The notes beneath the pieces are model-generated. The model saw only the letters and a program-made list of their open reading frames with translations. It was not told the DNA's origin and did no database searches. A stretch of 64,000 nucleotides of DNA from the NCBI GenBank assembly GCA_947502835.1, contig CANNBJ010000001.1:124001-188000 (forward strand), read 5' to 3'. Shown here piece by piece: positions 24,589-46,163 of this stretch; the first letter of the stretch is position 1, and each line of letters opens with the position of its first letter. Origin of the DNA: Bdellovibrionales bacterium. Its GTDB lineage: Bacteria > Bdellovibrionota > UBA1018 > CAIMNF01. The translations under genes and the position numbers were made by a program.

Positions 24589-25491
24589 ATGCCAAGGACT
24601 GAAACTCGAGACAATCGGCAGAATTTGCCCCGAATTTCAATGATTGCAACACCGATCGGAAACCTCTCCGACCTGAGTGCGCGCGCCATTGAGTCTCTTC
24701 GTGCCGTGGATGAAATCTGGTGTGAGGACACCCGGCATACCCAGGCACTCTTGTCAGCGCTCGGAATCAAGGGAAAGCTCCTGAGGCGTGTGGATCAACA
24801 CATCGCTTCAGACGAGCTCGGCGCCCTTCTGGAGGGGGTTAGGGCGCGCTCCTTGTGGGTCGGTGTTGTCACGGATGCCGGAACTCCCGGATTGAGCGAT
24901 CCGGGGGCTCGTCTGATGGAGCAGCTCGGGAAGTTTCCCGAAATCCAGTCCGAGCCGGTACCCGGGCCTTCCGCTCTCTCGGCGCTGGTCTCGATAGGGG
25001 GGTTCAGCGGAAGTTCTCTTTATTTTCATGGGTTTTTTCCGCGGGAGCGTAGTGAGGCGCTTGAATTGTTAACGAGCTTGAAAGATTCAGTCATCAGTCC
25101 GAACTGGGTCTTTTTTGAAAGCCCGCATCGGATTCGGGACGCATGGGGGGTGCTTGCCGAATGGTGTCGCGCCGCGGGAGAGGAGCCCGGCTTTGTCTTT
25201 GCAAAAGAGCTGACAAAGGTCCACGAAAGGGTGCTTCGAGGCCGGGGGGTCGACTTTCTGAAAGGGCTTCAGGAACAAGAGCTTGATGAGAGAGGCGAGT
25301 GGGCATTTGCCCTTTTATTTTCTAAAGAAAGTTTAAATAAAAAACAACCAGCCCCGGAGTGGGAACCTGCCTTGGAATGCCTCCTTCAGGCGGGGATTTC
25401 GCCGAAATCCGCCAGCCTGATTGTCATGGAGCGGTTCTCCATCGCGAAAAATTTGGCGTACAAGCGGGCTCTGGAATTGCAAAAAAAATAA
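24589..25491 (+). CDS. rsmI: 16S rRNA (cytidine-1402-2'-O)-methyltransferase
   Basis: 300 residues. RsmI methylates the ribose of C1402 in the ribosomal P site, using SAM. The tetrapyrrole-methylase fold is clear: ISMIATPIGNLSDLSARAIESLRAVDEIWCEDTRHTQ at the start, VGVVTDAGTPGLSDPGARLM for the SAM pocket, and VPGPSALSALVSIGGFSGSSLYFHGF. SPHRIRDAWGVL and FAKELTKVHERVLRG complete the family pattern. A short N-terminal extension (MPRTETRDNRQN) is present; an ATG at 24640 would remove it. No ribosome site decides between them. Confidence 0.93.
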   Translation: MPRTETRDNRQNLPRISMIATPIGNLSDLSARAIESLRAVDEIWCEDTRHTQALLSALGIKGKLLRRVDQHIASDELGALLEGVRARSLWVGVVTDAGTPGLSDPGARLMEQLGKFPEIQSEPVPGPSALSALVSIGGFSGSSLYFHGFFPRERSEALELLTSLKDSVISPNWVFFESPHRIRDAWGVLAEWCRAAGEEPGFVFAKELTKVHERVLRGRGVDFLKGLQEQELDERGEWAFALLFSKESLNKKQPAPEWEPALECLLQAGISPKSASLIVMERFSIAKNLAYKRALELQKK

Positions 25492-25508: not shown

Positions 25509-25536
25509 TTGACCCCGAAACGAAGCCTTGTATCCT
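25509..25536 (+). promoter_or_regulatory. Sigma-70-type promoter for the 25.5-25.75 kb leader
   Basis: TTGACC at 25509-25514 and TATCCT at 25531-25536 are 16 bases apart, placing a transcription start near 25543. That leaves about 205 bases of untranslated leader before the HD-GYP gene at 25748. Confidence 0.55.
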
Positions 25537-25542
25537 GAATGA

Positions 25543-25747
25543 GTGTGGTTGTGGTTGAGTCCATGGATGGATTCGTAGCGGGAGAAAAAATCTCTGTTCG
25601 GGCGGCAAGGCCGCCGAAAAAAGCTCCACTGCCCCGGCAAGATCAGGATGACACCTTGCCGGGGCATTCTTTCACCCGCTCTTGAACTGCAATCGCCGGT
25701 TTTAATCCCGATTCCATCAGGACGATGGATGAAAGAGAGCAGATTGC
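25543..25747 (+). ncRNA. Structured leader or small RNA with GGA-loop hairpins
   Basis: The leader contains, in order: stem GAGTCCA/TGGATTC around loop TGGA (25557-25574); stem GGCGGC/GCCGCC (about 25600-25615); an 11-bp perfect stem beginning GCCCCGGCAAG (25631-25641 with 25655-25665) around a 13-base loop containing AGGA; and CCATC-AGGAC-GATGG (25714-25728), 20 bases before the ATG. Three loops thus present GGA. The third hairpin, followed by ATTCTTTC, could end a separate RNA of roughly 125 bases. CsrA/RsmA-type recognition is inferred, not shown. Confidence 0.5.
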
Positions 25748-45269: not shown

Positions 45270-46103
45270 TTAGCCGAGAAGTTTCAGAACTTGTTGCGGA
45301 TTCGCATTGGCTTGGCCAAGGACCGAGATTCCGGCCTGAGCAAGAATGTTGTTCTTGGTCAGTTCAGAGGTCTCTGCAGCCATGTCCGTGTCACGGATCC
45401 GGGAGCGTGCGGCTTCCAAGTTCTCGCGGTAGGTCCCGATGTTGTTGATCGTGGACTGGAGGCGGTTTTGGAGTGCGCCGAGAGCCGAGCGGTTCTCATT
45501 CAAGCGGGTGAGCGCTGAATCGAGTTTCGCAAGGTTCACTTGGGAGGATTCTTTGTTTGCAGTTGAGATTCCCTCAATTCCGAGGGCGTCTGTTCCGACG
45601 TTCTGTTGTTGAGCGTCGAATACCAGGCGATCCTGGGCTGCATTATTATTGATTCCGACTTGGATTTCGAGCTTGTTGCCGGAACCATTCAAAAGTTTGG
45701 TGCCATTGAATTCAGTAGTGGTCGCGATTCGATCGATTTCGGAGCGCAACTGCTGAACTTCTTTATCGATGAAGCTTCTTTCCTTGTCACCGATGGTGTC
45801 GGAAGCAGCCTGGATCGAGAGTTCTCTCATTCGGACGAGAATGTTTGCAATCTCGTTGGTTCCGCCTTCGGCCACTTGAATCATCGAGATCCCGTCCTGG
45901 GCGTTTCTGCCTGCCTGGGAGAGGGAGCGGGTGGATGCACGGATTCGCTCTGAAATTGCGAGTCCTGCAGCATCATCGCCTGCACGGTTGATTCGGTTAC
46001 CAGAAGAGAGGCGCTCAAGTGAGCCCTCTTGTGCCCTACGGTTTTGATCCAAGTTACGCTGGGCGATCATCGCTTGGAGGTTAGTATTGATACGCAAACC
46101 CAT
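45270..46103 (-). CDS. fliC: Flagellin
   Basis: 277 residues, the compact size with little or no variable D2/D3 region. The N-terminal D0/D1 helices (MGLRINTNLQAMIAQRNLDQNRRAQEGSLERLSSGNRINRAGDDAAGLAISERIRA) and the C-terminal helices (SRIRDTDMAAETSELTKNNILAQAGISVLGQANANPQQVLKLLG) are standard. It is exported by the flagellar type III apparatus and forms the filament. AAGGAG precedes the ATG, a sigma-28-type promoter lies about 95 bases upstream, and the leader holds an AGGA-loop hairpin. No other flagellar genes are in the window, so this is an isolated filament gene. Confidence 0.97.
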   Translation of the reverse strand: MGLRINTNLQAMIAQRNLDQNRRAQEGSLERLSSGNRINRAGDDAAGLAISERIRASTRSLSQAGRNAQDGISMIQVAEGGTNEIANILVRMRELSIQAASDTIGDKERSFIDKEVQQLRSEIDRIATTTEFNGTKLLNGSGNKLEIQVGINNNAAQDRLVFDAQQQNVGTDALGIEGISTANKESSQVNLAKLDSALTRLNENRSALGALQNRLQSTINNIGTYRENLEAARSRIRDTDMAAETSELTKNNILAQAGISVLGQANANPQQVLKLLG

Positions 46104-46145: not shown

Positions 46146-46163
46146 ATCGTGATCCTTCACGAT
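46146..46163 (-). promoter_or_regulatory. AGGA-loop hairpin in the flagellin leader
   Basis: On the minus strand ATCGTGA-AGGA-TCACGAT forms a perfect seven-base-pair stem with loop AGGA, 43-60 bases before the flagellin ATG and downstream of the sigma-28-type promoter. Together with the AAGGAG ribosome site it gives two A(N)GGA sites in the leader, the arrangement known for CsrA control of flagellin in Bacillus. Confidence 0.6.

Follow-up and report, generated by a model that had tools for sequence, protein, structure and literature searches.

A conserved small RNA with CsrA-type loops beside an HD-GYP gene in one order of Bdellovibrionota, a candidate antagonist of CsrA

Small RNAs that sequester CsrA are known mainly from Gammaproteobacteria, FliW being regarded as the antagonist employed in other phyla. 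In organisms that possess FliW, the usual target of CsrA is flagellin, and no sRNA that antagonizes CsrA is known for B. subtilis and C. jejuni, which have the FliW-CsrA-flagellin switch. The E. coli sRNA McaS titrates CsrA in addition to pairing with mRNAs, and the merRNA of Bdellovibrio is related to the c-di-GMP riboswitches. This merRNA is an abundant RNA (PMC3627812). A high-affinity CsrA/RsmE site consists of a hexaloop, ANGGAX with variable N and X, that sits immediately on a stem, and omission of N (AGGAX) lowers the affinity 10 to 1000-fold (PMC4005645). Antagonism of CsrA by an sRNA and by FliW has been called mutually exclusive (PMC7366521). FliW is reported to be absent from Gammaproteobacteria and to be anti-correlated with BarA-UvrY, the system driving such sRNAs (PMC4682653, PMC7652899), at -0.95 to -0.97 (PMC4682653), and PMC7652899 leaves it as a question for future work whether there is any species in which FliW and sRNAs act jointly. 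No paper joining CsrA with Bdellovibrionota was found in a literature search that excluded subscription papers and preprints, and a prior description is possible.

The locus described here lies in the window, a stretch of 64,000 nt from a Bdellovibrionales bacterium (GCA_947502835.1, contig CANNBJ010000001.1, 124,001-188,000 of the forward strand), in whose numbering coordinates are given. Its focal region (25509-25747), located between rsmI and an HD-GYP phosphodiesterase gene, almost certainly carries a stand-alone RNA gene, here called RNA1 (Table 1). Judged by sequence comparison, RNA1 is a small RNA that no catalogue has listed so far and that is conserved across one order of Bdellovibrionota, and it is predicted to be a discrete RNA from its own promoter and intrinsic terminator, both of which are conserved in relatives. 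An earlier note on this DNA had described the promoter pair and the GGA loops as we found them, and had proposed either a 205-base leader with three GGA loops or an Rsm-like RNA of about 125 bases. Each of these proposals proved right in part. The stand-alone Rsm-like RNA is strongly borne out by order-wide conservation, covariation, the ANGGAN and AGGAN loops, the terminator, and the existence of another RNA built in the same way (RNA2). The third loop had to be separated from it: the second GGA-bearing stem ends RNA1, and the third loop therefore belongs to the leader of the downstream HD-GYP gene.

Table 1. Features of the RNA1 locus, a flagellin locus of the window, and RNA2. Positions are in window numbering, except for RNA2.
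Feature	Position	Strand	Remarks
rsmI, upstream neighbour	24589..25491	+	Syntenic across the order
RNA1 promoter TTGACC-N16-TATCCT	25509..25536	+	-35 box 25509-25514, -10 box 25531-25536, spacer 16 nt; pair kept upstream of the RNA in relatives
RNA1, predicted stand-alone small RNA, ~130 nt	25542..25674	+	Model R1, E 3e-25; 50/55 genomes of the order
5' element GTGTGGTTGTGG	25543..25554	+	Common to RNA1 and RNA2 (GTGTGGTTGCGG in RNA2)
Hairpin 1 GAGUCC-AUGGAU-GGAUUC	25557..25574	+	CsrA-type hexaloop ANGGAN; stem 99.3% paired
Hairpin 2 GCGGGAGA..TCTCT	25578..25595	+	GGA in 5' side of weak stem; GGGAGA mostly conserved
Terminator hairpin, tip UC-AGGAU-GA	25630..25666	+	CsrA-type pentaloop; perfect 12-bp stem (25630-25641/25655-25666), the 13-base loop pairing further to form the tip; covariation; z = -6.0 when folded alone
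Weak T-tract TTCTTT of the terminator	25667..25672	+	6-8 T in many relatives
HD-GYP leader hairpin UCCAUC-AGGAC-GAUGGA	25713..25729	+	CsrA-type pentaloop; recurs on different stems
Start-codon hairpin UUGC-AUGGAU-GCAA	25744..25757	+	ANGGAN loop formed by start codon and Asp codon
HD-GYP phosphodiesterase gene, 205 aa	25748..26365	+	Pfam HD_5, 2.6e-31; HDVGK and HHERWDGGGYP motifs
Flagellin gene with the leader hairpin below	45270-46103	-	
Flagellin leader hairpin AUCGUG-AAGGAU-CACGAU	46146..46163	-	~43-60 nt before the flagellin start
RNA2 (locus L105/L185)	G000:C3:154870-155058		Divergent to Methyltransf_32 methyltransferase gene; model R2, E 7e-34

The promoter is the sole sigma-70-like pair between 25000 and 26200, where 0.7 are expected in shuffled sequences, and thus taken alone stands at chance level; upstream of RNA1 in relatives a TTGAC(C)..TATCCT/TACACT/TAGACT pair is conserved. 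The 5' start of RNA1 was placed from the spacing to the -10 box and from conservation. None of 200 shuffles folds as strongly as 25543-25670 (z = -4.1). Conservation within RNA1 is highest in its 5' element, GUGUGGUUGUGG, which is near-invariant across 50 genomes, contains no GGA and may serve in processing, protein binding or base pairing. Hairpin 2 varies in loop and length among relatives, and its GGA is a possible third, weaker CsrA site. The T-tract of the terminator is weak in the source genome, so that some read-through into the HD-GYP mRNA, and with it a contribution of the RNA1 region in cis, is possible.

A DNA search of 58 relatives gave matches in each of the 11 remaining genomes of the genus, with weaker ones in many genomes of the order; every match whose position was checked lies in the rsmI neighbourhood. 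The covariance model R1, built from 16 aligned RNA1 sequences, was run on a sample of 291 genomes of the phylum, including 55 of the order (33 near-complete). RNA1 was found in 50 of these 55 genomes and in 32 of the 33 near-complete ones, so that the earlier note's own grounds for rejection, a region lacking conservation, did not materialize. Outside the order R1 gave one marginal match, which resembles a gene-end terminator; the matches in G018:C12, G029:C2, G106, G064 and G056 were likewise set aside as marginal, since they resemble either unrelated repeats or terminators at gene ends. When 84,980 species genomes were scanned with a sequence pattern, 36 loci came out, nearly all in MAGs titled Bdellovibrionales, Oligoflexia or Bacteriovoracaceae, and the few titled otherwise (e.g. 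'Lysobacteraceae', 'Nitrosovibrio') match contigs of the same order.

In the alignment of 50 RNA1 sequences, 97.0% of cells are paired and double-sided changes occur in 13 of 19 pairs, a result equalled by none of 500 shuffles. This alignment was fitted to model R1, and the cleaner support for covariation therefore comes from a MAFFT alignment (n = 16) independent of it: 98.3% of cells paired, double-sided changes in 8 of 18 pairs, and again 0 of 500 shuffles equal. Hairpin 2, which MAFFT misaligned between families, was excluded from the count. The terminator hairpin alone displays double-sided changes in 9 of 10 stem pairs and in all three tip pairs. An Rfam search of the RNA1 region gave no family at the gathering score or at E<=5, only two chance-level matches, in agreement with the earlier view that no riboswitch class is recognizable here; the covariance models of CsrB, CsrC, PrrB/RsmZ, RsmX and RsmY were unmatched at the same thresholds. 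A divergent 6S RNA, considered because of the pairing ends, was rejected, as the 6S RNA of this genome is located elsewhere.

The loops are the part of RNA1 that points to CsrA. Hairpin 1 carries an ANGGAN loop in 50 of 50 genomes, with A, C, G or U at the second position and A, C or U at the sixth, and the terminator tip carries AGGAN in 47 of 49 (the two exceptions are AUGGA and CAAGGAU). Tip stems have been wholly replaced with the loop kept, as in GCC-AGGAU-GGC (L170), GAAAC-AGGAC-GUUUC (L096) and CCC-AAGGAU-GGG (L184). CsrA-type hairpins, counted with stems of at least 5 bp and compared with shuffles and permuted loop motifs, are present in 48 of the 50 RNA1 sequences; shuffling leaves about 1, and the permuted control loops give 0-1. 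Both RNAs have at least two A(N)GGA loop motifs, RNA1 two in nearly all of the 50 genomes and RNA2 three. Given the affinities of ANGGAX and AGGAX loops, RNA1 has one predicted high-affinity site and one predicted weaker site. CsrA is encoded in 53 of the 55 genomes of the order, including all 33 near-complete ones, and that of the source genome retains L4 and R44, residues of established importance for RNA contact. On these grounds RNA1 very probably binds CsrA, and sequestration of CsrA is its likely main role. Several points count against such a role: the well-formed sites of RNA1 number only two, fewer than in CsrB or RsmZ, which implies a capacity of about one CsrA dimer; the terminator tip is of the weaker AGGAX type, and the T-tract is poor in the source genome; GUGUGGUUGUGG, the most conserved part, lacks GGA; RNA1 was undetected in G013, an assembly that is 97% complete; and with FliW present in 53 of 55 genomes, antagonism of CsrA does not strictly require an sRNA.

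RNA2 was reached through weak secondary R1 matches in other genomes, which were first suspected to be 6S RNA, a suspicion denied by Rfam. The covariance model R2 detects it in every one of the 12 genomes of the genus, and also in the sister genus (2.8e-7), and gave no convincing match beyond them. RNA2 is longer than RNA1 and is located at an unrelated locus, has a TTGACA-N16 promoter in 12 of 12 genomes and carries the same 5' element (GUGUGGUUGCGG). Its hairpins GCUUC-ANGGAN-GARGC and AUCG-ANGGAN-UGAUC each keep the ANGGAN loop in 12 of 12 genomes, and a third GGA hairpin is more variable. One design with common loops at two unrelated loci argues for a shared partner protein. About 65 nt upstream of the RNA2 -35 box lies a palindrome, TCTTAGAT-N5-ATCTAAGA, that several genomes of the genus conserve (L097, L098, L100, L104-L107); a regulator may bind there to control RNA2 or else the divergent methyltransferase gene.

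RNA1 and RNA2 resemble RsmX/RsmY/RsmZ and CsrB/CsrC in being stand-alone RNAs with a terminator and stem-borne ANGGAN hexaloops, in occurring more than once per genome, and in being accompanied by an encoded CsrA. They differ in that RNA1 matches no Rfam family, belongs to Bdellovibrionota, occupies an rsmI/HD-GYP locus in genomes that also possess FliW, and has only two or three sites compared with 22 GGA in CsrB. McaS, whose sequence is unrelated, is similar in its few GGA sites with room for about one CsrA dimer and in that a different conserved element may give it pairing as a second function, although no pairing target was identified for RNA1. The merRNA, too, is non-coding, comes from this phylum and has a link to c-di-GMP, but the window gave no match to a c-di-GMP riboswitch (GEMM).

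Downstream of RNA1, CsrA-type hairpins occur in 20 out of 48 regions of 150 nt, versus 0.38 in shuffles. The leader hairpin of the HD-GYP gene covaries in its stems among relatives, taking the forms CCUAUUC-AGGAU-GAAUGGG, CCGUUC-AGGAU-GAACGG, CGACUC-AGGAA-GAGUCG and CCCAUUC-AAGGAU-GAGUGGG within the genus and AGGAAGCC-AGGAU-GGUUUCCU, among others, in other families. As a separate CsrA-type hairpin with changing stems, it upholds the earlier suggestion that CsrA is connected with the c-di-GMP gene of this locus. The start-codon loop, AUGGAU or AUGGAC, is borne on stems of 5-6 bp in L005, L006, L007 and L015. Two hairpins, one of them across the start codon, are the arrangement that lets a CsrA dimer block ribosomes on other CsrA targets; by analogy, the two HD-GYP hairpins would act likewise, and the HD-GYP mRNA is a probable CsrA target in the genus. 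Flagellin genes show comparable features: three of the seven flagellin leaders of the source genome carry a CsrA-type hairpin whose stem has 5 bp or more, where shuffles give 0.11; one of the three hairpins, ACCUUC-AUGGAG-GAAGGU (L190), holds the Shine-Dalgarno sequence in its loop, and another is the one in the window (46146-46163).

The best overall explanation, which we regard as having a strong claim to be correct, is a CsrA-sequestering sRNA encoded beside a CsrA-controlled c-di-GMP phosphodiesterase gene. RNA1 would bind and sequester a CsrA dimer through the hexaloop of hairpin 1 and the pentaloop of the terminator tip, probably working with RNA2 and its three ANGGAN hexaloops. CsrA would repress mRNAs that carry the same hairpins, namely those of the HD-GYP gene, through its leader and start-codon hairpins, and of the flagellin genes, and a rise of RNA1 and RNA2 would free these mRNAs from CsrA. 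It is improbable that RNA1 is instead a trans-acting base-pairing sRNA, with GUGUGGUUGUGG as a seed for CA-rich mRNA sites and GGA loops that serve stability or CsrA-assisted pairing. The near-invariance of the 5' element over 50 genomes and its recurrence in RNA2 fit such a function, but its genome-wide matches (64, against 51 for a reversed-pattern control, both totals) reveal no clear enrichment, some predicted folds pair part of it near the terminator, and it would leave unexplained both the A.GGA. loops kept while both N drift and the recurrence of these loops in mRNA leaders. Just as doubtful is a cis-acting HD-GYP leader of 205 nt, in which CsrA on the internal-hairpin tip and the two downstream hairpins would set termination and translation. 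The weak TTCTTT tract, the CsrA-type hairpins beyond the terminator and the lack of any further promoter found between RNA1 and the HD-GYP gene agree with it; however, a full terminator with 6-8 T follows the same hairpin in many relatives, G016 keeps RNA1 although accD and not HD-GYP comes next, and RNA2, whose locus is unrelated, repeats the design. That the locus is plain intergenic DNA, with a terminator and chance GGA loops, is hardly credible, for although promoter and GGA matches stand at chance level in a single sequence and the window has hairpins of this sort at other places, the conservation, covariation and loop invariance go far beyond shuffles and refute it.

The order resembles the B. 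subtilis and C. jejuni switch in that csrA and fliW are neighbours, adjoining in 53 of the 55 genomes (in the source genome as well both CsrA and FliW are encoded), and in that the C-terminus of CsrA is extended and includes N55, which has been proposed to contact FliW (PMC13407953); it differs from that switch by the addition of an RNA with CsrA-type loops. The sequences incline us to the view that FliW and the RNA antagonists act on the same CsrA. With similar reserve we favour a scheme in which CsrA of the whole order is controlled by FliW and a pair of sponge RNAs, the gene of one sponge adjoining that of a CsrA-target phosphodiesterase and thereby tying motility to c-di-GMP. Such an arrangement suggests an origin of RNA sponges outside Gammaproteobacteria as well, and since the order encodes both FliW and a conserved candidate RNA pair, the question of joint action becomes directly testable. 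With R1, a covariance model is at hand for an RNA family absent from the catalogues, whose gene adjoins a candidate c-di-GMP target. As to individual genomes, G013 encodes CsrA and FliW and has no detectable RNA1, and in G041 and G043, assemblies that are 82% complete, RNA1 was found with no match to CsrA or FliW. The flagellin leaders with CsrA-type hairpins in the source genome are a further likeness to the FliW-CsrA-flagellin switch. At G000:C2:76978-79442, three consecutive flagellin genes have leaders with different CsrA-type hairpins, including L190.
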